DNA from: a virus
Virus record (IMG/VR): IMGVR_UViG_3300013111_000681
Location: 1 to 20,025 of that record
Strand: one strand, 5' to 3'
DNA length: 20,025 bases
The position numbers and the translations under genes are program-made. The notes below the pieces were generated by a model. The model worked only from the letters and a program-made list of their open reading frames with translations, was not told the DNA's origin and ran no database searches. Shown here piece after piece: positions 3,024-20,025 of the stretch; the stretch's first letter is position 1, and each line of letters begins with the position of its first letter.

Positions 3024-3110
3024 ATGATTAATAAAGAATTCAAAGAAAATAAGTTGAAACTGCTTAGAATGACAGATAGACAAATTGAAAAAGATGGGTT
3101 TTTACAATGA
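3024..3110 (+). CDS. Small ORF, 28 residues, possible leader peptide
   Basis: A 28-codon frame starts at ATG 3024, ten bases after AGGTG, and ends in a TGA that overlaps the next gene's ATG in an ATGA (3107-3110). The product is highly charged and lysine-rich (begins MINKEFKENK, ends RQIEKDGFLQ), with no signal peptide or membrane segment. The ribosome site and stop-start overlap suggest it is translated and feeds ribosomes to the glycosyltransferase gene, which lacks a clear Shine-Dalgarno site of its own. It may therefore be a coupling leader rather than a functional protein. I do not recognise the sequence. Confidence 0.5.
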   Translation: MINKEFKENKLKLLRMTDRQIEKDGFLQ

Positions 3111-4345
3111 AGAAGAAAAAGATATTAGTATTATCTGATCATGCTCTTTCAACGTCAGGTGTCGGCACTCAAACACGTCATCTTATAAATGGACTGCTTC
3201 AGAAGAACGAATGGACTTTTAGACAGTTTGGCGCTGCCATGAAACATACTGATTATAAAACTGTAACAGTCCATGACGATTTTATAATTAAGCCAATTGA
3301 TGGTTTTGGAGACAGGAACCTTATTAGATTAACACTTGCAACAGAAAAACCTGATCTTATTTTTATTTTTACTGATCCAAGATTTTTTACATGGCTTTGG
3401 GAAATGGAAGATGAAATACATCAAGTTTGCCCAATTGCATATTGGCATGTATGGGACAACGCTCCTTATCCAAAATTTAATAAAACTCTTTATGAATCAA
3501 CAGACACAATTAATTGTCATTCATTTCTGACATATGAACTACTTTCAGATAATCTTCCTAATCATTCAAGAATTAATTTTATACCGCATGCTGTCCCAAA
3601 AGAACTCTTTTATAAACTTTCACAAGGTGAAATAAAAAATTATAAAAAAGCTATTCTTGGTAGCGATAGGGGAGATCATTTTGTAGCAATTTGGAATAAT
3701 AGAAATGCTCGCAGAAAACGCCCTGGTGATTTGCTAAATGCATGGAAACTATTTCTTGATAAAGTACCTAGTCGCGACGCAACATTAATAATGCATACTG
3801 ACCCCTTAGACAGTGAAGGCCCGAACCTGTATATATTGGCAGAAGAATTAGGAATCAAAAACAATGTATTCTTTTCAAGAGATCGCCTTGAATTTGATAA
3901 AATAAATATATTATACAATATTTCAGATGTCTGTGTTAACATAAGTTATGCCGAAGGATTTGGCCTTGCAACACTTGAAGCAATGCAAACAGGTACTCCA
4001 ATAATTGCAGCCAAAACCGGTGGGCTTACAAGGCAAGTTGTTGATCATCGTGATGGATCTGAGAATGGTATTGCAATCGATGTCAGCATTTCAACTTTGG
4101 CAGGTTCGCAACAGGTTCCATATATCTATGAGGATTATGTTGCCATTGAAGATGTTGCTACTGCAATTTTTGAGATATATTCTTATGACGAACAAACAAA
4201 AAACAAAATGTCAAAAAAAGTTATGGATTATGTTGATTCTGAATTTAATATTCAAACAACAGTCGATTTATGGCACAGTTCATTAAATAATACAATAGAC
4301 ACCTGGAAAAAAGATTATAAACCATGGGACATTACAACACTATGA
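3107..4345 (+). CDS. GT4-type glycosyltransferase
   Basis: A 412-residue GT-B fold glycosyltransferase, the usual size for group 1/GT4 enzymes. The N-terminal domain opens with a beta strand and glycine-rich loop (ILVLSDHALSTSGVGTQTRH), which belongs to the acceptor side. The C-terminal donor domain carries the EX7E pattern with Glu283 and Glu291 inside EGFGLATLE, followed by AMQTGTPIIAAKTGG, typical of nucleotide-sugar binding. It is expected to be a retaining enzyme acting in the cytoplasm; sugar and acceptor cannot be read from the sequence. Its ATG overlaps the stop of a 28-codon frame and its own stop overlaps the next gene's ATG (4342-4345), so three reading frames are chained by ATGA overlaps. 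No strong ribosome site precedes it, consistent with translational coupling. Confidence 0.85.
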   Translation: MKKKKILVLSDHALSTSGVGTQTRHLINGLLQKNEWTFRQFGAAMKHTDYKTVTVHDDFIIKPIDGFGDRNLIRLTLATEKPDLIFIFTDPRFFTWLWEMEDEIHQVCPIAYWHVWDNAPYPKFNKTLYESTDTINCHSFLTYELLSDNLPNHSRINFIPHAVPKELFYKLSQGEIKNYKKAILGSDRGDHFVAIWNNRNARRKRPGDLLNAWKLFLDKVPSRDATLIMHTDPLDSEGPNLYILAEELGIKNNVFFSRDRLEFDKINILYNISDVCVNISYAEGFGLATLEAMQTGTPIIAAKTGGLTRQVVDHRDGSENGIAIDVSISTLAGSQQVPYIYEDYVAIEDVATAIFEIYSYDEQTKNKMSKKVMDYVDSEFNIQTTVDLWHSSLNNTIDTWKKDYKPWDITTL

Positions 4346-5517
4346 ATAAAAAAAATGTAGTAATAAGGGCACCTCTTTTATCACAGTCTGGCTATGGCGT
4401 TCACTCTCGCCAGATTGCCAAGTGGCTTTTCACAAGAGTCGATTTTTCTACAACAACTCAGGTCGTAAATTGGGGTAATACACCTTGGCTTTTAAACCAT
4501 GATGCTGAAGATGGTCTTATAGGGCAAATTTTTGAGAGAACAAACACAGGAAGAAGTACTTTTGACATTTCATTTCAAGTGCAACTTCCTAATGAGTGGG
4601 ATCCAAAACTTGCAAAGTTTAATGTTGGTGTAACGGCTTTAGTCGAAACAGATAAATGTAATCCAGTGTGGATAAATAATATAAACCAAATGGATCTTGT
4701 AATTGTTCCATCTCAATTTGTTAAAAAAACAATTTATAATACTGGTATTGATGTCACAACAAAAATAGTTGTTGTTGGAGAATCATATCATGAATCAATT
4801 GATAAAGATATAGCACCTTTATTTCTTGATATTGACACAAAATTTAATTTTTTAGTATTTGGTCAATTTACAGGAATGACTCCGCAAACAGATAGAAAAA
4901 ATTTATTTAATACTATCAAATGGCTTTGTGAAGAGTTTAAAGATGAAAAAGACATTGGAATAGTATTTAAAACAAATTCCAGTCGTGGTACAAAAATTGA
5001 TAAAGGTATCACAATAAATCTGGTTAAAAAACTCATCAGTGAAGTTAGACAGTGTCAATATCCAAAAATTCATCTTCTTCATGGAAATATGTCACCTGGT
5101 GAAGTCGCGTCATTGTACACACATAAACAAATTAATGCACTTATCTCCGCTACTAGGGGTGAAGGTTTTGGATTACCTTTGCTAGAAGCCGCTGCATCAT
5201 CGCTTCCGATTATTGCGACGAATTGGTCAGGTCATCTTGATTTTTTGCAGTTAGGTAGCTTTATTGAGCTTGACTACAGATTAAATGAAGTAGATAAAAG
5301 AAAACTTGATAATCATATTTTTGTTCCTGGCGCAAAGTGGGCTGAGGTAAATGAAAAAGATTTTAAAAATAAAGTAAGAAATTTTTATAAAAATAGAAAA
5401 GGAATCCAGTCTAAATCAAATAAATTAGCGCAAAAAATTAAGCAAGACTATTCATTCGATGCTACAAAAATTCAGTATAACGAAATGACACTAAAAAATA
5501 TTTTACAAAATGATTGA
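4342..5517 (+). CDS. Second GT4-type glycosyltransferase
   Basis: A 391-residue GT-B/GT4 enzyme. The N-terminus (NKKNVVIRAPLLSQSGYGVH) is a standard first strand plus glycine loop. Glu274 and Glu282 form the EX7E pair in EGFGLPLLE, followed by AAASSLPIIATNWSGHLDFL in the donor-binding domain. I chose the ATG at 4342 because it overlaps the preceding stop as ATGA and puts the first beta strand right at the N-terminus. An in-frame ATG at 4324 would add six residues (MGHYNT) and overlap the upstream gene by 22 bases. The end overlaps the next gene by eight bases. Together with the other two transferases it probably builds or extends a glycan in successive steps (inference). It differs too much from its neighbour in the N-terminal half to be a recent duplicate. 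Confidence 0.85.
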   Translation: MNKKNVVIRAPLLSQSGYGVHSRQIAKWLFTRVDFSTTTQVVNWGNTPWLLNHDAEDGLIGQIFERTNTGRSTFDISFQVQLPNEWDPKLAKFNVGVTALVETDKCNPVWINNINQMDLVIVPSQFVKKTIYNTGIDVTTKIVVVGESYHESIDKDIAPLFLDIDTKFNFLVFGQFTGMTPQTDRKNLFNTIKWLCEEFKDEKDIGIVFKTNSSRGTKIDKGITINLVKKLISEVRQCQYPKIHLLHGNMSPGEVASLYTHKQINALISATRGEGFGLPLLEAAASSLPIIATNWSGHLDFLQLGSFIELDYRLNEVDKRKLDNHIFVPGAKWAEVNEKDFKNKVRNFYKNRKGIQSKSNKLAQKIKQDYSFDATKIQYNEMTLKNILQND

Positions 5518-5839
5518 TTTTATTTCACTTTATCATTTATATATTATAGGATTGTTAGTCTTGTTATGTGGTGTTTCTGTTTTTTTTATGATTAAGTTTG
5601 CACTTGTTGTTTTAAACACTGAACAAAAATTAACAGATATTTTAGACGCAATAGATGATGAATACACAGAAATTACAAAAGTTCTTGAGAAACCTGTGTT
5701 TTTTGACAGCGTCGAAATTAGACAAGTAATCGCTAGCATTGAAAATGTTAGGCACACATTTTTAAATATTTCAAATTATATCATTGAAGATTTTAAAGAC
5801 GAAAACAACGAAGAAAAAAATGAAAAGGTAAGCAATTGA
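5510..5839 (+). CDS. Small single-span membrane protein, function unknown
   Basis: A 109-residue protein with one strong hydrophobic helix at residues about 11-35 (rich in I, L, V and F). It is followed by a long acidic, probably helical cytoplasmic region containing LTDILDAIDDEYTEITKVLE and VFFDSVEIRQVIASIENVR, and a Lys/Glu/Asn-rich tail. No signal peptidase site is seen, so the helix probably anchors it in the inner membrane. Its ATG overlaps the upstream glycosyltransferase by eight bases and its TGA overlaps the TTG start proposed for the sigma factor (TTGA, 5836-5839), so it sits between the glycosylation genes and the transcription genes within one transcript. I cannot name a function; the heptad-like spacing in the soluble part allows a short coiled coil. 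Confidence 0.7.
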   Translation: MIDFISLYHLYIIGLLVLLCGVSVFFMIKFALVVLNTEQKLTDILDAIDDEYTEITKVLEKPVFFDSVEIRQVIASIENVRHTFLNISNYIIEDFKDENNEEKNEKVSN

Positions 5840-6570
5840 TAGTAAGACGACTCAAGCGACGAAGAGGAAAGCGTAAAGGTACGAAAATGTATTTTGGTCG
5901 TCCTGCGCATGATGCTATTTGTGAATTTCAAAATACAGAAAAACAGGAAGATAAACACGAGATTTATGTAACGAGGATTAAAAAACCATTCAATACACTC
6001 GTTGAAAATCTAATTTTTATTCACGGTTTCAGGTCACTTACAGGATCACATGAAGATCTAAAAAATGATTGTGTTACATTTTTATATGAGACAATTCACA
6101 AGTTCGACCCATCTAAAGGTTCAAAAGCATTTTCATATTTTAATGTTGTTGCAAAAAATTGGCTAATTATACAATCAAAGAAAAATACACGAGAGTTAAA
6201 GAGAGCCGTTTCGTTAGATGACACTGAAATATTAAGTTTTCGTGATAAACAGTTAATTGAAATGCATTCTATTGTTGACGCGCAAGATAAAGACATGCTT
6301 AATAAAAACTCACTTATTGATTTGTTTTTAATGCTAGAAGAAATAAAGCATCAGCTTGATGGTGAAAATGAAATACTGTGTATTAATGCAATAATAACAT
6401 TATTTGAAAAAATTGAAGAACTTGACTTTCTAAACAAAAGAGCAGTTTTTGTTTATTTGCGCGACCTGTCAGGATTAAATCCAAAACAATTGTCAGTTGC
6501 AATGTCTGCTATTCGGCGCCACTATCGCCTAATAAAGAAAGATGATAAATATGATATAATATTCTTATAA
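5836..6570 (+). CDS. 55: Late-transcription sigma factor, T4 gp55-like
   Basis: Resembles the T4 gp55 family, the divergent sigma factor that directs host RNA polymerase to phage late promoters. The key stretch is FDPSKGSKAFSYFNVVAKNW (residues about 90-110) followed by a basic segment KKNTRELKRAVSLDD. In gp55 the corresponding KYKNPHAYITQACFNAF region forms the conserved domain-2-like core that binds the beta' coiled coil and the -10 DNA. The extreme C-terminus, YDIIFL, is hydrophobic with an acidic lead-in, like the sliding-clamp-binding tail of gp55. The start is uncertain: TTG 5836 overlaps the preceding stop and has AAAAGGTA five bases upstream (244 residues), while ATG 5887 has AAAGGT six bases upstream and gives 227 residues without the Arg/Lys-rich lead. 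The baseplate operon downstream is a logical target. Confidence 0.75.
   Translation: MIVRRLKRRRGKRKGTKMYFGRPAHDAICEFQNTEKQEDKHEIYVTRIKKPFNTLVENLIFIHGFRSLTGSHEDLKNDCVTFLYETIHKFDPSKGSKAFSYFNVVAKNWLIIQSKKNTRELKRAVSLDDTEILSFRDKQLIEMHSIVDAQDKDMLNKNSLIDLFLMLEEIKHQLDGENEILCINAIITLFEKIEELDFLNKRAVFVYLRDLSGLNPKQLSVAMSAIRRHYRLIKKDDKYDIIFL
6552..6560 (+). promoter_or_regulatory. Second TGATATAAT element, possible promoter
   Basis: The same extended -10 nonamer found at 2989-2997 lies inside the last codons of the sigma factor gene, about 20 bases before the ATG at 6581. A start site near 6567 would leave a very short leader with the AAGGTAA ribosome site. It also encodes the Asp-Ile-Ile of the sigma factor's C-terminus, so the match may be a by-product of coding. 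Confidence 0.25.
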
Positions 6571-6954: not shown

Positions 6955-8439
6955 ATGTCACGTGATTTTTTTAAGTCAGCGCTTGGTGATCTTGGTACAC
7001 ACGTAAAGAATGTTACGACTGACGACGGTCAGTTTATAACAGCATACGTAATTGATTATGTAAGTAATCCTGCTGATTTATCAAAAGAAAAATTTAAAGA
7101 CCTTTTTGGTGCTGAGATTACAGCAAATGATATTATAGGAATGCCACGTAATACAATTTTTGCATACCAGCTCAATAGAAAACAAAATTTAAAAAATCAA
7201 AGACCTTACATTGTTTTACCATTTTTCTCTCACATAGTCCAACCTATAAAGCCCGGTGAGTTGATTTGGTGTATAAAAGATTTTGATGGTCAGTTATATT
7301 GGCTTTCACGTAAACACTCACTATTAAGTGTAGAAGATTTAAACTATACATGCGAAACCCGCCTTCAGGAAACGCTTACTGACAATGTAATTATTAAAAC
7401 AACTAAGCAGACGGCAGATAAGTTTAATTCTGAAAAAGTAAAAGAAGACGTTTCATCTAAACCTATATCATTTCCGCCAATAACGGCAATAAAAACTGAT
7501 GCGCTTAAGCAAAATTTAAATATTTTTAATGCATCTGCAATTTCTGATTTTACTGGCGAGCCTATTCCACGTGCATCAACAAGATCTCCAGACTTATCAT
7601 TGCACGGATCTAATAACACAATGATTCTTCTTGGCGAAGACAGAGACACAGATAACTTAGATGAGGAAGGTCGGCAACAAAGCCGAGGTGCAATTGATCT
7701 GGTTGTAGGTCGCGGGCAAACAGAAAAAACATCAGCAATAAAAAATATTGAAAATGTATATGGATATAATGAAATAAATAAAGATACAAGATCGACAATT
7801 CCTGGTGAAAATGATAAAAAAACCGAGGGCGATATTGATTTTAAAAATGATTCTGCTCGTATTTTTATTTCAATGAATTCAATTGCTGATCAAAAGCTTG
7901 GTTATATTGATAAATTTGGTACAAGTTTAGACTTTTTTAATATAAACCATGGACACTATGACAGTGCAACAAGTGATGCCGTCATTTTACCAAAATCTTG
8001 TATTATTATTAAAGCAGACGAGAATAGGATCATTTCAAAATATGGTGGTTCATTATTATTAAAACGAGAAGGAAAAGAAACATCTTCTGGTGATAACGAG
8101 ACAGAACAAACAAATATTGAACTGTGTAAAGAGGGAAACATTCATCTTCGAACAGGTGACACAGGCATAATATATTTAGGTGAAAATGTATATTCACAAC
8201 CTGCAGTTCTTGGTCACGAGCTTATCGCTCACTGTAAATATCTATCACAAATATTAAAAGAGGTGATAATTCCTTCTCCTGTTGGTCCACTAACACTTGC
8301 ATCAGCAACAACCGGGGGTGCTAATCCTATGAATTTTAATGTTGTGTTAAATGATTGGGAGAATTATCTTGATAATTTATTAAGTGATGTTGTTGTTGTT
8401 GGATCAACGTATAACAATGAGAAACAGCGCCCATCATGA
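6955..8439 (+). CDS. Baseplate hub/central spike protein candidate (gp5-like OB-fold), no lysozyme domain
   Basis: A 494-residue structural protein. Residues about 60-130 look like the N-terminal OB-fold of phage hub/spike proteins: IVLPFFSHIVQPIKPGELIW followed by a YWLSRKHS strand. A middle region has SLHGSNNTMILLGEDRDT (around 215-235) and an RGAIDLVVGRGQ segment, typical of beta-rich phage baseplate proteins. Residues about 300-420 carry short beta repeats (SIADQKLGY, GGSLLLKREG, LCKEGNIHLRTGDTGIIYLG). The C-terminal 70 residues are helical (GHELIAHCKYLSQILKEVII). T4 gp5 has a lysozyme domain between OB-fold and beta-helix; nothing like its catalytic Glu/Asp/Thr arrangement is seen here. 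A GGAG lies eight bases before the ATG. It heads the baseplate gene run just before gp25-like and gp6-like genes, which supports the hub role. Confidence 0.55.
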   Translation: MSRDFFKSALGDLGTHVKNVTTDDGQFITAYVIDYVSNPADLSKEKFKDLFGAEITANDIIGMPRNTIFAYQLNRKQNLKNQRPYIVLPFFSHIVQPIKPGELIWCIKDFDGQLYWLSRKHSLLSVEDLNYTCETRLQETLTDNVIIKTTKQTADKFNSEKVKEDVSSKPISFPPITAIKTDALKQNLNIFNASAISDFTGEPIPRASTRSPDLSLHGSNNTMILLGEDRDTDNLDEEGRQQSRGAIDLVVGRGQTEKTSAIKNIENVYGYNEINKDTRSTIPGENDKKTEGDIDFKNDSARIFISMNSIADQKLGYIDKFGTSLDFFNINHGHYDSATSDAVILPKSCIIIKADENRIISKYGGSLLLKREGKETSSGDNETEQTNIELCKEGNIHLRTGDTGIIYLGENVYSQPAVLGHELIAHCKYLSQILKEVIIPSPVGPLTLASATTGGANPMNFNVVLNDWENYLDNLLSDVVVVGSTYNNEKQRPS

Positions 8440-8939
8440 TAACGAAGAGTATCATAAAAGAAACATTATTAAATCAAATTTATAATGATGGTATGTTTAA
8501 ACAGTTTGATAATATACCTACTGCGGCCGACGCATGGGCGACAGCGCTTACACAAATAATCTCTCTTGCTGGCGCAGTATCACCTCCTGGTGTTGCAGCT
8601 GCTGCAACTGCTGCACAGCCAGCACTGTTTTCAGCACTTCTTGCGACAATGTCAGCTGCACCAACAATTACAGCAATATCATCACCAAAAATTGTATTTG
8701 ATACACCAGTTACAGCATTTCTTATGACGATATCTGCTACAATACTTGCTGTCGCACCATATAACGTTGTAATTCCACCGTCGGCGTCGTTTAGCGAGGT
8801 GTTTCCAGCAATAGATGAATGTAAAGAAATATTAACACTTGATGATATTGCAGAATATCTATCAGCAAAAATTTATATGTGGATATTGACTGCAACCTGG
8901 ACACCACCGTCTGGGACACCAATAGCACCTTGGAGCTAA
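8436..8939 (+). CDS. Ala-rich probable structural protein, function unknown
   Basis: A 167-residue protein whose ATG overlaps the preceding stop as ATGA (8436-8439), so it is probably translated with the hub candidate. After a polar helical start it is dominated by Ala, Thr, Ser and Pro: residues about 30-75 (AWATALTQIISLAGAVSPPG, then AAAATAAQPALFSALLATM) and about 90-115 (TAFLMTISATILAVAPYNVV). These stretches are hydrophobic enough to cross a membrane or to pack as a helical bundle. The C-terminus returns to polar helix and ends WTPPSGTPIAPWS. No signal peptide is obvious because the hydrophobic part starts too late. Lying between the hub and the gp25-like gene it is probably a virion component, perhaps a spike or hub accessory. 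I do not recognise the family. Confidence 0.55.
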   Translation: MITKSIIKETLLNQIYNDGMFKQFDNIPTAADAWATALTQIISLAGAVSPPGVAAAATAAQPALFSALLATMSAAPTITAISSPKIVFDTPVTAFLMTISATILAVAPYNVVIPPSASFSEVFPAIDECKEILTLDDIAEYLSAKIYMWILTATWTPPSGTPIAPWS

Positions 8940-8995: not shown

Positions 8996-9466
8996 ATGGC
9001 GAAACTAAGTTTTAAAAGTGTTGGTGAAACGTTAAATTCAGATAAATTTTTGTCATCGAAGACATTTGATTTACCTTATGGAATAACAACACCCCTGCAG
9101 GTCGGCGATGATTCATTGTTTGAAATGTCTTCTGGTATGGCATCACAAATTTATGATAATTTAAAAAATCTTATTATGACAAATCACGGTGAACGATTAG
9201 GTCAGTTTTCATTTGGTGCAAATTTACAACCGCTTCTGTCAGAGCGCATTTCAAATGATAGTTTTGATGCAGAAGCAATGAGAAGAATTAAAACTGCAGT
9301 TAATTTTTTTATGCCGTATATTTCACTCAAAGATTTTGAAACGCAAATTGGTGAGTTTGATGAAATAACCCGATCTACAAGTATATTTATTACATTGACA
9401 TATGACATAAAAGATCTAGGTGTTGTTAATAAAAAAATTGTTGTATCACTACTTCCAATATGCTAA
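8996..9466 (+). CDS. 25: Baseplate wedge protein, gp25-like (GPW/gp25 family)
   Basis: At 156 residues it is close to the usual size of the family (T4 gp25 is about 132 residues). The signature is at residues about 50-80: YDNLKNLIMTNHGERLGQFS then FGANLQPLLSE, matching the family pattern of a helix, a conserved E-R-L turn and a G-x-N-L/P segment. In T4-type baseplates gp25 sits in the wedge, where it contacts gp6 and helps start sheath polymerisation; gp25 and its relatives are also the counterparts of type VI secretion TssE. A GAGGGGAG ribosome site precedes the gene. It selects ATG 8996, since the nearer ATG at 8988 is out of frame. The next gene is gp6-like, the usual order in marine T4-like phages. 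Confidence 0.85.
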   Translation: MAKLSFKSVGETLNSDKFLSSKTFDLPYGITTPLQVGDDSLFEMSSGMASQIYDNLKNLIMTNHGERLGQFSFGANLQPLLSERISNDSFDAEAMRRIKTAVNFFMPYISLKDFETQIGEFDEITRSTSIFITLTYDIKDLGVVNKKIVVSLLPIC

Positions 9467-9487: not shown

Positions 9488-11335
9488 ATGTCTAAAAAAA
9501 TTATTGAAAACGTTTTAAAAAAGAAAACATTAAGCCAATTTTACGGTCGTGATTTTGATGCAATTCGTGCCGACCTTTTACGTTATGCAAAAATCTATTT
9601 CCCAGATAAAATTAAAGATTTTTCAGACGCATCAGTCGGTGGTTTATTCTTAGACATGGCTGCACACGTTGGCGATACGATGAGTTTTTATATTGACCAC
9701 CAATTTAATGAGCTAAATATTGGCACGGCAATTGAAACAAGAAACATAATAAAATTATTTAAATCGGCAGGCGTCCCGCTACGCCCTGCTTCCCCTGGCG
9801 GCGTGCTTGCATCTTTTTATATTGAAGTTCCAGCTGTTTTGGATATAAATGATAATTATGTTCCTGACCCATCTACATTACCAATTATTCAAAAAGGGAC
9901 AATTATAAAAGCAAATTCTGGTATTTCATTTACACTTCTAGATAATTTAGATTTTTCTAAAGAAATAAATGACGTGCTAATTGCAGAAAGCGTGATTGGA
10001 AATATTGATGTTAGTTCAAATCCAACGTCTTTTATCATGAAAATGTCGGGTATCTGCGTATCAGGCAATACAAATACAAAAAAGTTTCAACTGGGTGATT
10101 TTGAACAATTTAAAAAACTAACGTTAGATAAAAAAGATATTACAGAAATATTATCTGTAAAAGATTCTGATGGTAATGAGTATTATGAAGTTGATTATTT
10201 AGTTCAAGATGTTGTTTTCAAAAAAGTTCAAAATAATGATTATGATTATGGCACTGTATCAGAAAATCTTGAGCTTCTCCCAGCACCATATAGGTTCACG
10301 AAAGAATATAATACTTTAACAGGTTTTACTACTTTAACATTTGGTTCAGGCAATTCATCAACGCTTGACGGTGATTATATTCCAGATCCTAGCGATTTTG
10401 CGTTACCATTATATGGTAAAACAGCATTTTCACGCGCGGCAATTGACCCTAAAAACATGCTATCAACATCAACGCTTGGCATGGCTCCGCATAATACAAC
10501 ACTTACTGTAACATATAGGTCTGGTGGTGGTTTAGGCCACAACGTTCCTGCAAATTCAATAAAAACAATCTCAACACTGTTTATTGCTTACAATAGATTA
10601 TCAACTGCATCGATTAATCTTTCAATTAAAAATTCTGTTGATGTTTTAAACGATTTAGCTGCGCAGGGCGGTGAGGATAAGCCAACATTAAATGAAATGA
10701 AATATGAGTATAAAGGATATATGAACTCTCAATCTCGTATTGTAACTAAAAGTGATCTTTTGGCTAGGGTCTATACGATGCCTGCGGATTTTGGAAGAGT
10801 ATTCCGCGCGGGTATTTCAAAAATATCACCAAACCCACTGGCAACACAATTATTTATTTTAAGCAGAGACAGCGCTGGTAAAATTACACATTCATCTGAT
10901 GGTCTTAAGAAAAATCTTGAAATTTATTTAAATGAATATAGGCTAATTTCTGATGCTATTGATATTTTAGATGCATTTATTATTAACATAGGACTTGAAT
11001 ATGAAATTATTACAGACGGTGTTTCGAATAAAAACATAGTAATTCAGCAAATAAATTCTAAGTTAAAAGAATATTTTAATATTAAAATGTGGCAAATTGA
11101 TCAACCAATAAATAAATCAGAAATAAAGAAAATCATCTTATCAAACGATGCTGTTATTTCTCTTGTTGGCGACATTTCAATTTTTAATAGGACAGGTGTC
11201 GGTAGTTCAGGCGATTATAGCAACATTTTATTTGACCCAACAGCTAACACAAAAAATGAGTTTGTAATTGGTCCCGTTGGCTCAATGTTTGAGTTAAAAT
11301 TTCCAAGTGACGATATTATAGGATACGTGAAATAA
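9488..11335 (+). CDS. 6: Baseplate wedge protein, gp6-like (baseplate J family)
   Basis: A 615-residue protein, near T4 gp6 (about 660 residues). Residues 57-100 hold the family core, MAAHVGDTMSFYIDHQFNE then AIETRNIIKLFKSAGVPLRP. Next comes a beta-rich section with GTIIKANSGISFTLLDN, the typical J-protein strand in which a linear sequence of small domains is held. The central part has YRSGGGLGHNVPANSIKTIS and a later EMKYEYKGYMNSQSRIVTKSD segment that recurs in gp6/J proteins. In T4 gp6 dimers form the continuous inner ring of the baseplate that joins the wedges. The ribosome site ACAGGAG is seven bases before the ATG, and the gene ends one base into the ATG of the next (TAATG), so expression is coupled. 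Confidence 0.85.
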   Translation: MSKKIIENVLKKKTLSQFYGRDFDAIRADLLRYAKIYFPDKIKDFSDASVGGLFLDMAAHVGDTMSFYIDHQFNELNIGTAIETRNIIKLFKSAGVPLRPASPGGVLASFYIEVPAVLDINDNYVPDPSTLPIIQKGTIIKANSGISFTLLDNLDFSKEINDVLIAESVIGNIDVSSNPTSFIMKMSGICVSGNTNTKKFQLGDFEQFKKLTLDKKDITEILSVKDSDGNEYYEVDYLVQDVVFKKVQNNDYDYGTVSENLELLPAPYRFTKEYNTLTGFTTLTFGSGNSSTLDGDYIPDPSDFALPLYGKTAFSRAAIDPKNMLSTSTLGMAPHNTTLTVTYRSGGGLGHNVPANSIKTISTLFIAYNRLSTASINLSIKNSVDVLNDLAAQGGEDKPTLNEMKYEYKGYMNSQSRIVTKSDLLARVYTMPADFGRVFRAGISKISPNPLATQLFILSRDSAGKITHSSDGLKKNLEIYLNEYRLISDAIDILDAFIINIGLEYEIITDGVSNKNIVIQQINSKLKEYFNIKMWQIDQPINKSEIKKIILSNDAVISLVGDISIFNRTGVGSSGDYSNILFDPTANTKNEFVIGPVGSMFELKFPSDDIIGYVK

Positions 11336-12426
11336 TGTATAAAATTATTACAGCTTCTGCTGACACATATATAACAAATAAAATATTAAATGCATCAACG
11401 AAAGCGTCTGATGCAAATATGGGTAAGTCAAGCACAATTGATATTTTTAAATTATATGATGAATCTATTTTTACAGGTGAAGCTACACCAATTGAATTGT
11501 CGCGAGGATTAATAAAATTTGATCTAGACAACGTTCCCGCCACAGCACCTGCTGAATTAAATTTTTCTTGCGAGCTAAAGTTATTTGATGTATTCGGTGG
11601 ACAGACATCACCTTCAAATTTTACGTTGCAATTATACCCACTTCGTCAGGCATTTGATGAAGGACAAGGTCGAGACGTTTCATCATTTGATGATCTAGGT
11701 GTATGCAATTATATTACGGCATCATTTTCTGCGGGATCAGATAATACTTGGGAAATTCCCGGAGCAGCTGGGCCAGCTGCTGATATATTTACAGGATATT
11801 CAACATTGACACAGGTTTTTGAAGAAGGAACTGAAGATCTTTCAATTGATGTTTCTGCAGTTATTTCAGATATGCTTGATGGAACAATTCCAAATAATGG
11901 ATTTAGGCTATCATTTATCGCAACAGAAGAAACAGACACAAAAACAAGATTTGTTAAGCGATTCATTTCTCGTCATTCAAATGATAAAAACAAAACGCCT
12001 CGTTTAATTGTAAAGTATGATGACACTATTCAGGATTCAACAACAAATCTTTATGATTACACAAATTATATTTCAACGATTACAAATTTAAAAAGTGAAT
12101 ATTCACATAGTGATAATATTAGATTTCATATTTTTGTTGAGGATAGAAATTATAATAATGTAGTCGCATCAAAACTGCCACTAGAAAGAGCAAGCCTACT
12201 GTTAGACAATATGTATTATTCGATTGTTTCAAATGCATCAGGTGATATTATTATACCATTTGACACGGTTGGCACAAAAGTTTCATATGATGAAGATGAA
12301 ATGTTTTTTGAATTAAATATGTCAAATCTTTCGAAGGGAATGTCATATGAGATAAGATTTAGAATTATTGAATCAGATGGTATTCAATACACAATACAGA
12401 ACAAACATATTTTTATGGTTATGTAA
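11335..12426 (+). CDS. DNRLRE-domain baseplate-associated protein
   Basis: A 363-residue protein. Residues 1-225 fit the DNRLRE domain layout: ASADTYITN at the start, GKSSTIDIFK, then SRGLIKFDLDNVP, a DEGQGRDVSSFDD region where DNRLRE proteins have their W-x-E segment, SIDVSAVISDMLDGTIPNNG followed by FRLSF, and the closing PRLIVKYDD strand. Residues about 240-363 form a second, beta-rich domain, Ig-like by pattern (SDNIRFHIFVEDRNYN and SYEIRFRIIESDG). DNRLRE domains are beta-sandwich modules mostly known from secreted and surface bacterial proteins, where they are linked to glycan binding or structural stacking. Placed between the gp6-like and gp7-like genes, it is likely a baseplate component or adhesin. 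The gene starts in a TAATG overlap with the previous stop. Confidence 0.65.
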   Translation: MYKIITASADTYITNKILNASTKASDANMGKSSTIDIFKLYDESIFTGEATPIELSRGLIKFDLDNVPATAPAELNFSCELKLFDVFGGQTSPSNFTLQLYPLRQAFDEGQGRDVSSFDDLGVCNYITASFSAGSDNTWEIPGAAGPAADIFTGYSTLTQVFEEGTEDLSIDVSAVISDMLDGTIPNNGFRLSFIATEETDTKTRFVKRFISRHSNDKNKTPRLIVKYDDTIQDSTTNLYDYTNYISTITNLKSEYSHSDNIRFHIFVEDRNYNNVVASKLPLERASLLLDNMYYSIVSNASGDIIIPFDTVGTKVSYDEDEMFFELNMSNLSKGMSYEIRFRIIESDGIQYTIQNKHIFMVM

Positions 12427-12429
12427 TAA

Positions 12430-15400
12430 ATGACGTATTCATCACCAACATTTGTATCACCTTTTTTTATTGATAGTTTAGCCCAAAATAAAGCGGCTAA
12501 AAAAATTAATGATAATGACCTTGACTTAAGCGATGATGTGTATGCTCATTATAATTTAAACTCAATCCAATCAACACAGCAACTTCCTATTGATTGGTCT
12601 AGCTTCGAAAATCATACATTTTTTAATTCCGCAGAAGCAAATGTTAATACGGCGTTTGATACAATCGTAAATAAGTTTCCGTTTGATGGAACAAAAAAGG
12701 AGGTTCATGATTTTTTAGTGGGCCTCACTGGGTTTGAAAAATATGTTTATGATTCATTCCCAAAAAATACAGGATTTCTTAAATTTGACAATTCTTATAT
12801 TGAAGTAAGTGATAGAAAAAATGCAGATGAAATAATTGACAAAACGATACCTTTTGAGCGAGTTCTTAATCCTGGTGCCAATTCTTTTTCTATTGAAACA
12901 CATATTTTTATTCCTGAGGAAGTTAATGATAACCAGGTAATTTGTCAAAAAATTGAAAATGAAGACCTTGGTTTTTCGCTAGTATTATCTGAATCAAGTT
13001 CAATTGAAACAGCTCAAATTCAATTTATTATTACATCTGGTTCATCGATGGTTTTTGAAGAGTTTCCTATCACAAAAGGCGGATTTTCACATATTTGCGC
13101 AACATTTGATAGGAGCCCAGGCCAAAATAAAATTTATTTATATCAAAACACTGAATTAATAACAGTGTCAGACTCAGTTGAAATGCTAGAGGTCAGTCCT
13201 GTTTCTTCTGCATTGACAATTGGAACTGGAACAACAACTTTACAAACAGGTTTTTTGACTACTGAAAAGTTTGTTCCCCAAGAGACATTTTCTGGCTATT
13301 TAGATGAATTTAGGTTCTTTCATTCAAAGCGATCTATTGAAGATCAGGAGCTTTATGGTAAAAAAACAATTTTTGCAAATGATGATCTTAAGTTATACTT
13401 CAAATTTAATGAACCATATGATTACGACAATTCTGCAAATACAACAAATATACTTTTAGATTCATCTGGCAACTCACTTCATAGTTATATTTCAAATTTT
13501 GATGTAGAGCTTCGAAACACAGGATCGCTTTTACTAGAACCGATCTCTTTTGAAGATAAATCTTTTGCCCCTGTTTTGTTTCCGGCATTTGAAAAAACAA
13601 TTAACTTAAACACAGGGCTTCTATTATCTGCAAGTTTTTATGATGAAAATAATCCAAATTTAATTACAAAACTTGTGCCTCCACATTATTTCTTAGAGGG
13701 TCAGCAAGTCATCCAGACAGATGAGAAAGGAATGGGAACAATTTCAAGTGCATCACCAACATTAGATACTCCTGGGAATGGACAGCTAGGAACAGCACAG
13801 ATGCTGACTGCATTATTGCTAATGTGGGGTAAGCATTTTGACGAAATAAAGATTGTTTTAGATCATTTTTCAAATATTATTCACCTTGACTATGATGATA
13901 AAGATTCTGCTTTAGCAATGTTTTTACCATTTATTTCTGAATATTATGGATTTGACCTTCCATCATTTTTCCCTAACGCAACTCTAGCACAATTAATAGA
14001 AGGCGAAAATATTGATGGAAATATTTCTTCATCGTTATCACTTGACTATATTCAAGGACAGCTATGGAAACGTATGCTTTTGAACTTAAACGATGTTCAC
14101 AAATCAAAAGGAACAATTCATTCGATAAAGTCTATGCTTCGTAGCGCTGGAATTGATACCGACTCTTTATTACGAATTAGAGAATATGGCGGTAACGCTA
14201 AGAAAGACATCACATTTTCACGCCAACAAAAAACAGAAGTATCTACATTGCTTGATTTTTCTGGTTCGTTATCAACTGAAACACCAGGAATATTATCAGC
14301 ACAAGGGTTTGCGCCTAATTTTCCATACCTAACATCATCATGGCTTTCAGGTTCAAGAACAGAAGTGGGATTTCCAGAGCCTGTTGGTCCATTTACCAAT
14401 AAGGAAATATATTATCCTCACGGAATATCCTCATTTGAATCTGATGGTTTATATACGTCAGGCTCATTTTTAGTTGAAGGTATTTATAAATTTCCTAAAC
14501 AAAGAACATATCCTGAAAATCAAAGTTTAATGCGGCTTTGCATAACTGGTACTTTACAGCCGTCTGATACACATGCTGTGGTCGCAAATATAATTGCTGT
14601 TTCATCATCAATCTCGCCTGAGGATCATGAGTTAAGGTGCTATATTAGTCCGACTGACTCAACTACGATGACTGACGACAGCATCATTTCACTTATTTTA
14701 ACAGGTACAAATATTTTTGACGGAAATAAATGGAATATTTCTGTGTCCAGGCATCGTAATGATGAGATTAGCAGCGTCGCTTCCTCATCGTATTCATTAA
14801 AATGTGCCAGACAATCATTTGGTGAGATTAAAGAATTTTTTACAACATCATCATTCTTTTATGAGGGTGCTGATAACGATATGTTTAAAACAAATAATGA
14901 TAACTTAAATGCATCTGGATCATTTATTACGATAGGAAACCAAGCGATTGCAGCACATGATAAGTTTTTAAACGCAGCGGCACTTTCATCTGTTACAAGA
15001 ACTACAGAATTTGGAGGTCAAGTTGGCCACCTTAGAATGTGGTCAAAAGGTTTTACTAACAATGAATGGAAAGAGCATGTTAAAAATTATACTTCACTTG
15101 GTGTAGTTTCACCTTTTGATAATTTTAATTTTAATACAGTGGCAACTGGATCATTTCAACGATTAAGAGTGGATGCTTCAACAGATCAAGTCAGCACAGG
15201 CACAAATGTGTCAGGTGAAATAGAATTATTTGATTATTCACAAAATGAAAACCATGTCGGTTGTTTTGGGTTTGAAGCTGACACAAATGTTATTAAGCCA
15301 GAAACATTTTACTTTGGGTTAATATCATCTAAATTTGATCTTTTGCAAGAAACTAATAAGATTCGTGCGAGGGGAATGGAGAAAGAATATAATGCAGATT

Positions 15401-15888
15401 CTTCAAAAAACGCAATTCACGGTCTTGTTCATGAGCTTACAAAACAAGGTGAATTTTTTGATGATCCAAGGTTTTCTGTAGAGTTTTCTTCTGTTGATGC
15501 ACTGAACGAAGACATTATCAAGATGTTTTCATCACTCGATATTATAAATGATATTCTTGGCGCTCCAAATAATGTATTTGCAGACTCATATCAAGATTTA
15601 GAAAAATTAAGAGAGGTTTATTTTAATCGTCTTACGTCGAAACCTGATCTTGATAATTATTTTGCATTATTTAAATGGTTTAATAGCACATTTACTCAAA
15701 TTATTGAACAGCTTCTTCCACGAAAAACAAAATATATGGGGACAAATTTTATTGTTGAGTCTCATATGTTAGAGCGCCACCGTTTTAAATACCTTTACGA
15801 TGATATTTATTTACAAGCTTCAGAGCGTGACAGTTCTAGGGGAAATATCTTTCTATCGCAAATAACAGGCAGCATAGGTAAATTCTAA
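12430..15888 (+). CDS. Large baseplate wedge candidate (gp7-like position) with two LamG-like domains
   Basis: A 1152-residue protein, near the size of T4 gp7 (about 1030), and in gp7's place after gp6. Residues about 115-310 form a concanavalin/LamG-like domain (FLKFDNSYIEV, SFSIETHIFI, FSHICATFDR, YLDEFRFFHSKRS). Residues 458-590 resemble a helical region shared by large phage wedge proteins: MLTALLLMWGKHFDEIKIV, then HLDYDDKDSALAMFLPFIS, and GTIHSIKSMLRSAGIDTDSL ending in RIREYGG. Residues about 670-895 form a second LamG-like domain (SFLVEGIYKFP, NISVSRH, VGHLRMWSK). The last 150 residues include helical FALFKWFNSTFTQIIEQLLP. LamG folds usually bind sugars, so these may be receptor contacts or only wedge decoration. 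There is no clear ribosome site; coupling to the preceding gene three bases away is likely. Confidence 0.6.
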   Translation: MTYSSPTFVSPFFIDSLAQNKAAKKINDNDLDLSDDVYAHYNLNSIQSTQQLPIDWSSFENHTFFNSAEANVNTAFDTIVNKFPFDGTKKEVHDFLVGLTGFEKYVYDSFPKNTGFLKFDNSYIEVSDRKNADEIIDKTIPFERVLNPGANSFSIETHIFIPEEVNDNQVICQKIENEDLGFSLVLSESSSIETAQIQFIITSGSSMVFEEFPITKGGFSHICATFDRSPGQNKIYLYQNTELITVSDSVEMLEVSPVSSALTIGTGTTTLQTGFLTTEKFVPQETFSGYLDEFRFFHSKRSIEDQELYGKKTIFANDDLKLYFKFNEPYDYDNSANTTNILLDSSGNSLHSYISNFDVELRNTGSLLLEPISFEDKSFAPVLFPAFEKTINLNTGLLLSASFYDENNPNLITKLVPPHYFLEGQQVIQTDEKGMGTISSASPTLDTPGNGQLGTAQMLTALLLMWGKHFDEIKIVLDHFSNIIHLDYDDKDSALAMFLPFISEYYGFDLPSFFPNATLAQLIEGENIDGNISSSLSLDYIQGQLWKRMLLNLNDVHKSKGTIHSIKSMLRSAGIDTDSLLRIREYGGNAKKDITFSRQQKTEVSTLLDFSGSLSTETPGILSAQGFAPNFPYLTSSWLSGSRTEVGFPEPVGPFTNKEIYYPHGISSFESDGLYTSGSFLVEGIYKFPKQRTYPENQSLMRLCITGTLQPSDTHAVVANIIAVSSSISPEDHELRCYISPTDSTTMTDDSIISLILTGTNIFDGNKWNISVSRHRNDEISSVASSSYSLKCARQSFGEIKEFFTTSSFFYEGADNDMFKTNNDNLNASGSFITIGNQAIAAHDKFLNAAALSSVTRTTEFGGQVGHLRMWSKGFTNNEWKEHVKNYTSLGVVSPFDNFNFNTVATGSFQRLRVDASTDQVSTGTNVSGEIELFDYSQNENHVGCFGFEADTNVIKPETFYFGLISSKFDLLQETNKIRARGMEKEYNADSSKNAIHGLVHELTKQGEFFDDPRFSVEFSSVDALNEDIIKMFSSLDIINDILGAPNNVFADSYQDLEKLREVYFNRLTSKPDLDNYFALFKWFNSTFTQIIEQLLPRKTKYMGTNFIVESHMLERHRFKYLYDDIYLQASERDSSRGNIFLSQITGSIGKF

Positions 15889-16709
15889 TGGCATCAGCAA
15901 AATTTATTAAAAGAACAATTATCGGTACATTAGTACCTGCAGTTGATAGGTCTTCTCGTTTTGATCCACCTCTTCGTATTATAGCCGAAGAAAATTCAAT
16001 TGATACATCTAAAATTTTACGTTTTAGGCAGGGCATTTCTGTACAATTACAAGATCAAAAATATTCTGAAGCGCTTACTCCTAAAATATCATCGGGCCAA
16101 CAACGCGGAAAACAGCCGGATCATTATATTGAAGAGCGTGAGTTTGGACAGCCTAAATATCACCTTGATGATAAAAAATATCTTGATATTAATGGTCGTT
16201 TTGATCCAATAGCATTCTTGGGCGGAAATTGGGCCATTCAATATCCTATAGTATTTCATGAGAGCCTTGTTGATCCTGCAAGGTTTGATGGTGTTATCGA
16301 ACCGCTTACAATCCGTAATACTATCGGAAACCTATCTATCGACTCCCCATTTCATCCACATTCTTTCCGAGGTGACCTCCAGGCTGGTAACACATCGAGA
16401 GAGTTCGGTAGCTCTGTAATCACTGGAGACATCACGACGTTAGAAGCAGAAGTAAGCGATCCGTTTTTTGATGCACAAGAAAAGATCCTAGAAGTTGCTG
16501 TTCCTGGCTATAGCTCCGATGTAGCAAAAATTCAAAATGCCTTTAATGATCATGAAGGACAAGTAGCAAATGATGAACTAAACACATCATATGATAGAAA
16601 CCGCCAGCGTTATGACCATAACACAAAATCATCAGTATCGGGCTTCATATATGGGAATAATCCAGAAGGTACCGATTCATTAGCTTTTGGCGGATTACTA
16701 AAAAAATAA
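15888..16709 (+). CDS. Putative baseplate/tail protein, function unknown
   Basis: A 273-residue protein starting in a TAATG overlap with the previous gene, with AGGT eight bases upstream. The N-terminal third is basic and Arg-rich (FIKRTIIGTLVPAVDRSSRF). The middle contains YLDINGRFDPIAFLGGNW and aromatic, proline-bearing loops (FHESLVDPARFDG, DSPFHPHSFRGDLQ). The C-terminus is polar (YDRNRQRYDHN, SGFIYGNNPEGTDSLAFGG). There is no signal peptide or membrane helix. By position it could correspond to gp8 of T4 (334 residues), but I see no sequence signature and the match is positional only. G+C is about 50% over 16321-16440, far above the roughly 32% at the start of the same gene, an internal composition shift. 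Confidence 0.6.
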   Translation: MASAKFIKRTIIGTLVPAVDRSSRFDPPLRIIAEENSIDTSKILRFRQGISVQLQDQKYSEALTPKISSGQQRGKQPDHYIEEREFGQPKYHLDDKKYLDINGRFDPIAFLGGNWAIQYPIVFHESLVDPARFDGVIEPLTIRNTIGNLSIDSPFHPHSFRGDLQAGNTSREFGSSVITGDITTLEAEVSDPFFDAQEKILEVAVPGYSSDVAKIQNAFNDHEGQVANDELNTSYDRNRQRYDHNTKSSVSGFIYGNNPEGTDSLAFGGLLKK

Positions 16710-16757
16710 AATGTATTATATTTATAGGTGTAAATTTATAAAGTTATGGAAAGTTAA

Positions 16758-19700
16758 ATGAGTGAAGAAGTAAAAAGTAAGTTTCTTGGTAATACAACAA
16801 TTAATGATATAAATATTGTTGATCATCATCTAACTGGTTCGTGGCAAACAATATATGGTGATATTAATCCAAACATAAACAATGATAGCCTCATAGCATA
16901 TTGGAGGTTTTATAATGATGACGGCGGAACATTTACAGAAGATTCATCTGGAAATAGTCATGTTATAAACTGGACAAATGAACCTTCATTAAATTTTGAT
17001 ACCCCGTTTAAAAACAAAAACTCAACAGTTACTTTCGATGGTACAAATGATGTTGGTGTTGTTAGTGACCATGATGATTTGTCATTTGGTGACAGCGCTA
17101 ATGATAGCCCATTTAGCATTAGTTTTTGGATAAAACAAAATCCACTTGAACCAACTAAAGAATATCAAAATATTATAAATAAACTTGATGGTGTAAATAG
17201 AGAATATGCAGTTTGGTTATATAATAATCAAGCAGACAGCGAAAACGCACAAACAATTTCGTTCTTTTTATATGATTCAGTTGCAGGTCATCGAAAATAT
17301 TCATATGTAATTGATAATAAGGCGATAGTTGATAATTTATGGCACAATATTACAATTACATATAACGGAAATGAAACACTGTCAGGTTCTGGTATTACAA
17401 TTTATTTAGACGGTCATAAAAAGAGCGGATCTGAAATTAATTATAGTGAAGTAGGGACATATACTGCTATGCATAATACAGCGGCTGATATAACTGTTGG
17501 TGGTTGGGACGCTGCAGGTTCATATTTAAATGCTTCTTTAGCTGAGCTTGCTATCTGGAATCGAGAGCTTAATGAAACAGAAGTAAAAGCACTTCATGAT
17601 GTCAAGCATGGCGTTTTTTCAAATTCATATACATCGTACTCACCTCGAATTGCCCTTCGTGATCAAGACAATCATCGGGGTCAATATCCCACTATCAAGC
17701 GTATAGGTGATAAAGATCGAAGTGGTGAATTTGATATAAAATTTAACGATGAGAATACAATATTATTCAAAGGTGAAAGTGATCTAAATGTTCAAGTTGG
17801 CCTTCCGGCAAATGATCCAAAAGTACCGTCAATTTCATCTGACATTTCGACACAAGGAAGAGTAAAAAAGGGGATTGGTGATCAAGCGTTTAATATCATC
17901 ACACCTGGTCAAGACATTTCAGCGTTTAACGATACGGACAAACATATCGGAGCATCTGAGTTTTACCTAACGGGAACTGATCAAGAAGTTTATCCAAACT
18001 TTTCATCACCGCTTGGAAGCAAGACGTCATTTACATTTGATATTACGGCAAATGAAGAACAATATGTATTTCGCCAGACAGGTGAAGCTGTAGCCGCTGG
18101 TGCCTTAGCTGAAAATGTACTTGACTCTGTAGATTTTCGTGATCAAGATTTTACAGGATTCTGCTATTATGCATTTGGTAAAAATAAGTGGGAACAGGTT
18201 GGATTAACGAATCCAGAAGATGGCTCATCACGTACATATAGATATGCATTTGATTACAATAGCTATGGTGATGCTGGTCCTGAAACTTTTCCCTCACAAT
18301 TCGCTGGTCAGAACAATTTCTATCCCCAAAACAACGAAAAAAACAGATCATTAAACTACACAAAAGAAAATCTAGGCTATGACAAAACAGGCCTTCCAAC
18401 AATTTCATCTCTTGCACCCTGGGGAACACAATACCATGCAACGTCAAGTCAGGTATTAAGTACAAGCGATATAATTTCTTCACCATTTCTTCTTGAGAAA
18501 ATTAACATTTCACTCCCTGTTCATGCTCGCCAATTAATCAACGGCGACAATGGTCTAGGTGTTGGTGGCGGAGCCGATGACATGTCACGTGAGATGACGA
18601 ATTATGTTGTATTTTTATATCTTCAAAGACAAAACACATCTTCAGGAGCAGATACTACCGAAGGTGTATCGTCAAGTGAAAGAGTGTTAATTGCAAGTAG
18701 CTCAGTATGCTTTTATAATTCGAATGTTTTGGTTGATAATGCTGGAGCCACAGAGCTTGCAACGTTTGAGCCAATACATGATGCAGGTTTTTCTCACGGA
18801 TTTACGTTCGCAAATGATGGAAACTATGAGGAAAAAACATACGACGGAATTATCAACTTAGAATTTACACCTGCAATTGCAAGCTCATGTTATATGTATT
18901 CTAGGATTCCTCGATATACTGACAGTTCATCTACATATAACGGAGCTTCAACGATGTACTCACATTTTTGGCCTGGAGGTAATAACATTGAACCGTTTCA
19001 ACTTGATAATACTTCTGCAGGCGGAAAAGATTCAGATATATCACTAGAAATGTCATTATATCCTTTCAAAGAGTATGTATTTGCTAATTCTCCTACGTTA
19101 CAAGCCAAAAATCAAAATATACCTGTTCATAAGTTTGTTAAACGCCACGTCAAAAACTATGGGCCAGCTTTAACAAATCAAGAAACGACAACAGGTGATA
19201 TCCTCTTTGATAAAGTTTTTCAACAAGTGACAGTGAAATCATACTCCCAATCTGCGCCATTTATATTATTACCAGGTGATCAGTTGGTTTTAGGTATTGA
19301 TCGTTGTGTGGGCGATAAAATAGGAGATTATGGATTAGTAAGCCAGCAATCATTGTCAGGATCTCTTCTTAAAATTAAAACAGATCCGGCATCAATGACG
19401 TTTTACGGCTCGCTAATAAAAGAAAACAAAGAGTATCACGAGAATAGAAATCAAGATCTTACATCAAATGCAATCCACGAAGCTCTTTATAGTCATCCAA
19501 CTGTTGATCAGTTTGAAATTGAACCGATCTCTGTGTATAGCGGTTCATTTTTTAATGAATATCTCACCGGCTCTTTTAAGGTCGATGAACTGGGCTTCGA
19601 TGCATCTCGGCGGGTAGTTGCCGATGCTGCTGCACAATCGACATCGTATATACATCATAATAGGGGTTTTCGTTGTGCTGATTCAAGTGAGGTATTTTAT

Positions 19701-20025
19701 GATACGGTGCTTCCTGACATGTTTTTATATGCACGTGTTCAATGGCCAGATGAAACAGTTAAAAAAACGATTGACAATGTTATTTATTATGACGGTCCGT
19801 CAGATGATGATACTCCAGATGCTGGAGCAGCTTTCTGGCAAGGTATATATGCGTTTCCGTTTGCTCATGAACTAAATAGGGGAGACATTCAATACAAAAT
19901 AAAGTATAAAAATGCGTCTGGTGGTGATCTATATACATATAATGCAAATACTTCGCGAACTCTTTTATTCATGGAAGGATTTTCAAAAACAGCCGGCGTA
20001 GATAACATTGGCGATATTTATGTAG
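16758..20025 (+). CDS. Very large LamG-domain tail/baseplate protein, C-terminus beyond window
   Basis: An open frame of at least 1089 codons runs from ATG 16758 off the right edge without a stop. GGAAAG six bases before the ATG serves as ribosome site. Residues about 45-285 are a LamG-like beta sandwich: LIAYWRFYND, STVTFDGTND, SFWIKQ, LWHNITITYNG, ITIYLDGHKKSG, ITVGGWD and AELAIWNRELNETEV, the usual order for LamG_3-type domains. After that come long beta-rich regions (RIALRDQDNHRGQYPTIKRI, TSFTFDITANEEQYVFRQ, SPFLLEKINISLPVHARQ, VFQQVTVKSYSQSAPFILLP) without recognised domains. The downstream end YNANTSRTLLFMEGFSKTAG is still beta-like. Size, LamG and position after wedge genes suggest a baseplate-periphery or receptor-contact protein. 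It may work with the other LamG-bearing protein in this operon. Confidence 0.7.
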   Translation, partial: MSEEVKSKFLGNTTINDINIVDHHLTGSWQTIYGDINPNINNDSLIAYWRFYNDDGGTFTEDSSGNSHVINWTNEPSLNFDTPFKNKNSTVTFDGTNDVGVVSDHDDLSFGDSANDSPFSISFWIKQNPLEPTKEYQNIINKLDGVNREYAVWLYNNQADSENAQTISFFLYDSVAGHRKYSYVIDNKAIVDNLWHNITITYNGNETLSGSGITIYLDGHKKSGSEINYSEVGTYTAMHNTAADITVGGWDAAGSYLNASLAELAIWNRELNETEVKALHDVKHGVFSNSYTSYSPRIALRDQDNHRGQYPTIKRIGDKDRSGEFDIKFNDENTILFKGESDLNVQVGLPANDPKVPSISSDISTQGRVKKGIGDQAFNIITPGQDISAFNDTDKHIGASEFYLTGTDQEVYPNFSSPLGSKTSFTFDITANEEQYVFRQTGEAVAAGALAENVLDSVDFRDQDFTGFCYYAFGKNKWEQVGLTNPEDGSSRTYRYAFDYNSYGDAGPETFPSQFAGQNNFYPQNNEKNRSLNYTKENLGYDKTGLPTISSLAPWGTQYHATSSQVLSTSDIISSPFLLEKINISLPVHARQLINGDNGLGVGGGADDMSREMTNYVVFLYLQRQNTSSGADTTEGVSSSERVLIASSSVCFYNSNVLVDNAGATELATFEPIHDAGFSHGFTFANDGNYEEKTYDGIINLEFTPAIASSCYMYSRIPRYTDSSSTYNGASTMYSHFWPGGNNIEPFQLDNTSAGGKDSDISLEMSLYPFKEYVFANSPTLQAKNQNIPVHKFVKRHVKNYGPALTNQETTTGDILFDKVFQQVTVKSYSQSAPFILLPGDQLVLGIDRCVGDKIGDYGLVSQQSLSGSLLKIKTDPASMTFYGSLIKENKEYHENRNQDLTSNAIHEALYSHPTVDQFEIEPISVYSGSFFNEYLTGSFKVDELGFDASRRVVADAAAQSTSYIHHNRGFRCADSSEVFYDTVLPDMFLYARVQWPDETVKKTIDNVIYYDGPSDDDTPDAGAAFWQGIYAFPFAHELNRGDIQYKIKYKNASGGDLYTYNANTSRTLLFMEGFSKTAGVDNIGDIYV

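Follow-up and report, generated by a model that had tools for sequence, protein, structure and literature searches.

The 20,025-base window analysed here, the entire IMG/VR record IMGVR_UViG_3300013111_000681, is a fragment of a tailed phage, and its second half holds two large tail genes in which LamG-type domains recur. One encodes a putative gp7/gpI-type baseplate wedge protein of 1152 residues with two inserted LamG domains (12430..15888), and the other a giant tail protein of at least 1089 residues (16758..20024) that runs off the end of the record; like all window features given below, both lie on the + strand. These open reading frames (ORFs) are as described in the original prediction, which had also placed two LamG-like domains around a helical wedge region in the 1152-residue protein and one near the N-terminus of the giant. 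We refer to the three domains as LamG1 (residues 113-375, 12766..13554), LamG2 (residues 630-955, 14317..15294) and LamG3 (residues 40-285 of the giant, 16875..17612). LamG1 is taken to include the C-terminal tail LKLYFKFNEP..LLDSSGNSLHSYISNF, LamG2 is cryptic at the sequence level, and in LamG3 the motif AYWRF..EDSSGN lies on the N-terminal side. The remainder of the 1152-residue protein comprises an N-helical block (residues 46-110, 12565..12759) with the motif NHTFF, a helical core (residues 385-612, 13582..14265) lying between LamG1 and LamG2, so that the two domains do flank it, and a C-terminal helical block (residues 958-1152, 15301..15885).

Relatives were collected by a profile search of IMG/VR, which gave at least 568 matches; the best 80 of these loci were used, and three genome contigs were added, one of them matching the LamG1 region only. 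The wedge protein was matched by blastp in 97 loci, 92 of which had a closed ORF of at least 1100 residues, and removal of redundancy left 73 proteins including that of the window. Against the Pfam cut-off of 27.6 bits for Laminin_G_3 (PF13385), significant matches were obtained for LamG1 (residues 148-302, 32.4 bits, E 1.2e-7) and for LamG3 (giant residues 114-277, 51 bits, E 2.2e-13). LamG2 of the window protein had neither a Pfam match nor a match in a sequence search of solved structures; across the 73 aligned members, its region matched Laminin_G_3 in seven (best E 2e-4), the runner-up family being found in two. Modelled alone from the 73-row alignment, LamG2 reached a mean predicted local distance difference test (pLDDT) score of 93.5, and the model matched the LamG domain of PAPP-A (Z 15.9, root-mean-square deviation (rmsd) 3.5, 204 aligned residues), PTX3 (Z 13.6) and the LG domains of laminin and neurexin (Z about 12). 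In a model of the whole 1152-residue protein (mean pLDDT 54), LamG1 (residues 113-373) matches LamG/pentraxin folds as LamG2 does (Z 20.2, rmsd 2.5, 199 aligned). Residues 151-260 of this model stand at pLDDT 78-89, and the score falls to 36-42 near residues 131-140, 271-280 and 331-340. The matches shown by a fold search with this whole model belong to LamG1, one tandem-LG match covering residues 113-948, and the search is no test of the helical parts. Since LamG1 and LamG3 exceed the Pfam cut-off and both LamG1 and LamG2 adopt the fold in their models, all three LamG-type domains are real, LamG1 and LamG2 by fold and LamG3 by sequence alone.

The original prediction had proposed examining the three domains for a shared origin. 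By profile comparison, LamG1 is related both to LamG3 (E 1.3e-11) and to LamG2 (E 1.6e-6 over 206 columns), and the match between LamG2 and LamG3 is weak (E 6e-4, 40 columns); control segments gave E-values of 0.047-0.72. After their last helix, LamG1 and LamG2 have a common tail, LYFKFNE..LLDSSGNSLHSYISNF in LamG1 and NFNF..LFDYSQNENHVGCFGF in LamG2, which in LamG3 stands N-terminally. In 14-row alignments, the probability of the LamG1-LamG2 match was 33% without the tail and 74% with it. The shared tail agrees with descent of both wedge LamG domains from one ancestor. Since LamG1 scores nearer to LamG3 than to LamG2, however, an internal duplication giving rise to LamG1 and LamG2 is not proven.

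Conservation within the 1152-residue protein is uneven. Among the 73 non-redundant proteins the mean pair identity is highest in the N-helical block (0.615), followed by the C-terminal block (0.485), the core (0.452), LamG2 (0.434) and LamG1 (0.390). The two commonest Pfam families among 37 core segments were Tail_P2_I, found weakly in 17 (best E 0.0045), and Gp7_helical, found in three (best E 0.011); HTH_MCM7, Haspin and other lone weak Pfam matches were taken as chance. In PHROGs, the tail proteins matched gp6 and gp25 families only, and the core matched nothing consistent. A tblastn search with gp6 returned 12 records, among them Immutovirus immuto, Microcystis phage Mel-JY01 and LR756508, a 484-kb phage. 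Each of these three has a protein of 1265-1400 residues at the gp7 position, and the gene order gp25, gp6, a protein of ~370 residues and, further on, the large protein is common to them and to the window. Compared by hhalign with a profile of the three gp7-position sequences, both the core (E 1.8e-17) and the C-terminal block (E 1.3e-12) were matched, and both could be placed in each of the three proteins. Judged by the gene order, the weak Pfam signals and this homology, the backbone of the 1152-residue protein looks like a gp7/gpI-type baseplate wedge protein.

The same comparison divides the phages by the occupancy of two slots, one between the N-helical block and the core and the other between the core and the C-terminal block. 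In all 11 non-redundant immuto-type proteins only 9 residues separate the matched core and C-terminal stretches (the C-terminal match in immuto begins at column 48 of the block), and there is no LamG match there; the best match to the LamG1 profile in this set (E 0.013) lies in a different part of the protein of locus L143. In all 12 Mel-type proteins the second slot holds 278-283 residues that match the LamG1 profile (E 6.5e-7 to 5.8e-5). All 23 proteins of the two types have 83-115 residues from the N-helical match to the core, compared with 274 in the window. Both slots are filled in the window and in the 72 non-redundant relatives examined. LamG1 was found in all 72 by an iterated hidden Markov model (HMM) that came to include LamG1 copies, and in 13 of 14 relatives by Pfam alone; the LamG2 region is present at full length in all 73 proteins (306-420 residues), LamG2 itself being weakly seen in 10 of the 72 relatives. 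Together with the folds and the profile matches, the empty and filled slots identify LamG1 and LamG2 as insertions in the wedge backbone. The slots are thus filled zero, one and two times in three groups, an unrooted series with respect to the direction of gain or loss.

LamG3 behaves differently. In relatives, the giants share an anchor motif (residues 290-345 in the window, 17625..17792), which we named PPR after its PPR(I).. start in those proteins. LamG domains downstream of the wedge gene were counted with an iterated HMM trimmed of this motif, as a version that retained it over-counted giants; the trimmed HMM gave 0 matches on reversed ORFs at E 1e-3. Downstream LamG domains were found in 35 of the 72 relatives, in overlapping classes: before the anchor of the giant (19), after it (5), in ORFs at the position of p273 (7), in other near ORFs (5) and in far ORFs (3). 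The HMM detected none in the other 37, seven of which have less than 1.3 kb of downstream sequence. The count is a lower bound, as locus L017 is linked to LamG3 by blastp and was missed by the HMM. In the window, p273 is the small, 273-residue protein between the wedge protein and the giant (15888..16709), with LamG in some of its homologues; in locus L012 (11387-13828) the p273 homologue is split by an insert carrying LamG and a glycine-rich ALK/LTK-type domain. LamG3-type domains are therefore modular traffic, unlike the fixed LamG1 and LamG2. Elsewhere, four adjacent small ORFs (242-316 residues) with a LamG_3 match each lie at 152390-155160 of G014, a 280,913-base record containing locus L016, far from its baseplate genes.

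The surrounding genes form a single run, every window ORF of more than 111 residues being on the + strand. First, a GT2-type glycosyltransferase (GT) and a PDDEXK nuclease are followed by two GT4-type glycosyltransferases, GTb (3107..4345) and GTc (4324..5517), and by ORFs for a 109-residue protein, a sigma-like protein and proteins of 122, 494 and 167 residues. Next come gp25-like (8996..9466) and gp6-like (9488..11335) baseplate wedge proteins, a 363-residue protein (11335..12426), the 1152-residue protein, p273 and the open giant. Where genes were detected, this operon order is kept in 71 of 72 relatives, the exception being one ORF matched by two queries. The sigma-like protein (5836-6570), a weak match to Sigma-70 region 2 (E 0.03) within the baseplate and glycosyltransferase run, is kept in relatives and may be a late-gene sigma factor. 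The 167-residue ORF (8436-8939), Ala-rich and hydrophobic, lies between the 494-residue protein and gp25 and had no blastp relative at E 1e-5 in the compared loci.

The 363-residue protein might possess a further sugar-binding-type fold, overlooked by the original prediction. Its family is linked to the Mel-JY01 homologue by hhalign (E 7.5e-22), and among 27 scanned family members eight match CBM96 (best E 6.3e-6) and two match a disaggregatase repeat; in the window protein and 13 clade relatives CBM96 had no match at E 0.1 (0/14). The window protein is without a middle domain of ~150 residues that most clade members have. Homologues in the close relatives L019, L020 and L026 (378-406 residues) are likewise shorter, and that of immuto also lacks the domain, which looks like another optional insertion.

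The original prediction had connected the LamG folds with the upstream glycosyltransferases to suggest glycan binding by the phage, either of host glycans or of those placed on its own virion. The ingredients of this conjectural idea hold: the folds, the origin that LamG1 shares with both others by profile, the place of the domains in a baseplate operon and the GT pair as a constant upstream neighbour, with GTc present in 32/32 and GTb in 20/20 non-redundant loci that reach far enough upstream, always in the same order. GT4 matches occur in 11 of 16 records, and the other five, judged by coordinates and ORFs, end short of that position. However, since the GT pair and the wedge LamG domains are both universal in the clade, their association carries no independent signal.

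Based on these results, we propose that the 1152-residue protein is probably a gp7/gpI-type wedge protein of a contractile-tail baseplate, with LamG1 and LamG2 as fixed parts, and that LamG3 is an exchangeable module for adhesion. Its backbone would be made of the N-helical block, the helical core and the C-terminal helices, LamG1 occupying the slot before the core and LamG2 the slot after it. T4-type baseplates have six wedges; by analogy, about twelve LamG domains might ring the baseplate periphery. As LamG1 and LamG2 are in place in all 72 relatives examined, we infer that they do a constant job, which could be the docking of fibres or other baseplate parts, possibly with some generic envelope-polysaccharide contact in addition. 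LamG3 and its mobile counterparts are carried by the large tail protein downstream and by neighbouring proteins. They come and go among relatives as receptor-contact modules do and would thus constitute the swappable adhesion module.

Several observations weigh against this proposal. The window's own match to Tail_P2_I (E 0.34, 11.2 bits) is below the cut-off of 20.6, and neither the core nor the C-terminal block matches a baseplate protein in the solved-structure sequence search. The N-helical matches that define the first slot are short in both the Mel-type (E 8.1e-5, 31 columns) and the immuto-type proteins (E 0.0069 over 20 columns), and in LR756508 the second slot, of 360 residues, matches the LamG2 profile weakly (E 0.0075). 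Furthermore, relatives were retrieved partly by the LamG1-tail pattern and kept as the best 80 of at least 568, so that members without LamG1 could be missed. The weak Pfam wedge signals and the low confidence of the whole-chain model in the core would also suit a peripheral fibre or spike protein adjoining the gp7 wedge. We consider this improbable in view of the profile homology of the core and C-terminal block to gp7-position proteins, the gene order, the near-constant length and the highly conserved helical ends.

LamG folds may have sugars, proteins or metals as ligands, or none at all, and it is tempting to regard LamG1 and LamG2 as receptors for host glycans, forming a lectin ring that grips envelope or capsule polysaccharide after the fibres have bound, as the carbohydrate-binding modules (CBMs) of Vp4 Gp119 seem to do. 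Gp119 is a wedge protein that has CBM folds and binds to host cells, unlike its CBM-less homologue Deep-Blue Gp177 (PMC11406892), which speaks against our proposal and for a receptor, as do the variable loops of LamG1 and LamG2, which would suit ligand contact as well. The LamG1 fold also resembles that of a Bacteroides protein with putative carbohydrate binding (4dqa, Z 19.4), CBM40 is among its Foldseek matches, and the 363-residue neighbour has CBM96-type relatives. AlgoCIS has a CBM cage (PMC8894135), and the authors of a phage genome predict a role for LamG proteins in host recognition (PMC8541153). On the other hand, each of the 72 relatives examined has LamG1 and LamG2 in conserved form, whereas receptor modules are mosaic. 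At the position of the PTX3 segment GQEKNG, the family profile has gsGsaa and the window GTGTTT, so that the acidic residues that bind Ca2+ at the rim of pentraxins are not seen in this loop. Most of the conserved polar residues are found in the tail motif and in strands: in LamG1, D128, N327, E328, D344 and S346 are kept in 73/73 proteins and H351 in 71/73. These residues cluster in the tail motif and a single strand, where they could be structural or a metal site. That LamG1 and LamG2 are fixed and conserved suits a part built into the wedge better than a domain that binds host-specific receptors, and a receptor role, although a serious candidate, seems rather unlikely to us. It is very improbable that the LamG domains act as a sugar clamp, for assembly or fibre holding, on glycans put on the virion by the phage's own glycosyltransferases. 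The constancy of the GT pair and its conservation (identity to the window averaging 50% and 58% where found, above the 37-46% of the wedge) would favour such a clamp. Yet the whole clade has both traits, GT matches occur in immuto with no LamG in its wedge protein, and in Mel-JY01, which has a slot-2 LamG, GT4 matches are located at 5 kb and at 84-86 kb in a record with gp6 at 163 kb. Were that genome circularly permuted, the 5-kb match would follow the wedge gene by about 23 kb. In addition, phage glycosyltransferases are reported to modify DNA too (PMC12619734). Least probable of all we hold a built-in lectin ring in which LamG1 and LamG2 would read sugars placed by the GT pair on the fibres or the giant, controlling fibre attachment or triggering.

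With LamG1 and LamG2 probably fixed wedge parts and LamG3 a mobile one, lectin-fold domains appear built into a core wedge protein and would be distinct from the adhesion domains that are exchanged among members of this large group of bacterial viruses, most of them uncultured. CBMs in wedges are already known; for LamG in a gp7-type wedge, our searches of the open-licence literature found no description. The accessible sections of PMC9025141 and PMC8541153 describe no LamG wedge. A close parallel is with Vp4 Gp119 and Deep-Blue Gp177 (Herelleviridae), in which carbohydrate-type domains likewise reside in one wedge protein and are absent from its homologue. Gp119 differs in being baseplate wedge 3, in its CBM families, in its Bacillus hosts and in that binding was shown experimentally, whereas the LamG folds of the window are in a gp7-type protein, fixed across the clade and known here from sequence and models. 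AlgoCIS Alg11 similarly has two CBMs inserted in one wedge protein (PMC8894135); there, however, they lie in domain IV and form a spike cage, and not in a gp7-type protein as the two LamG domains of the window do. The gp7-like part of Alg12 is described in the same source as laterally exposed and variable and is termed a re-engineering hotspot. Jumbo phage pPa_SNUABM_DT01 also has several LamG genes, proposed for cell-surface contact; they were assigned by domain search to gp001-003, 256 and 258, and the portion of the report at hand does not describe a wedge location (PMC8541153). Moraphages, aquatic jumbo phages, resemble the window by gene content alone, namely gp25, gp6, several core glycosyltransferases and a sigma factor, and the main text of their description has 0 mentions of LamG or concanavalin (PMC12619734). 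Also close to the window protein are the gp7-position proteins of two phages. That of Mel-JY01 (1336 residues) has the same core and C-terminal block and a LamG-like stretch in slot 2, but its slot 1 is empty, and in the linear record the baseplate genes have no GT4 match in their vicinity. Immuto gp109 (1265 residues) shares the core, the C-terminal block and the gene order, but both of its LamG slots are empty. The 0/1/2 occupancy series across related phages therefore supplies natural slot variants, two of them in cultured phages, that could be used to probe what such domains do.

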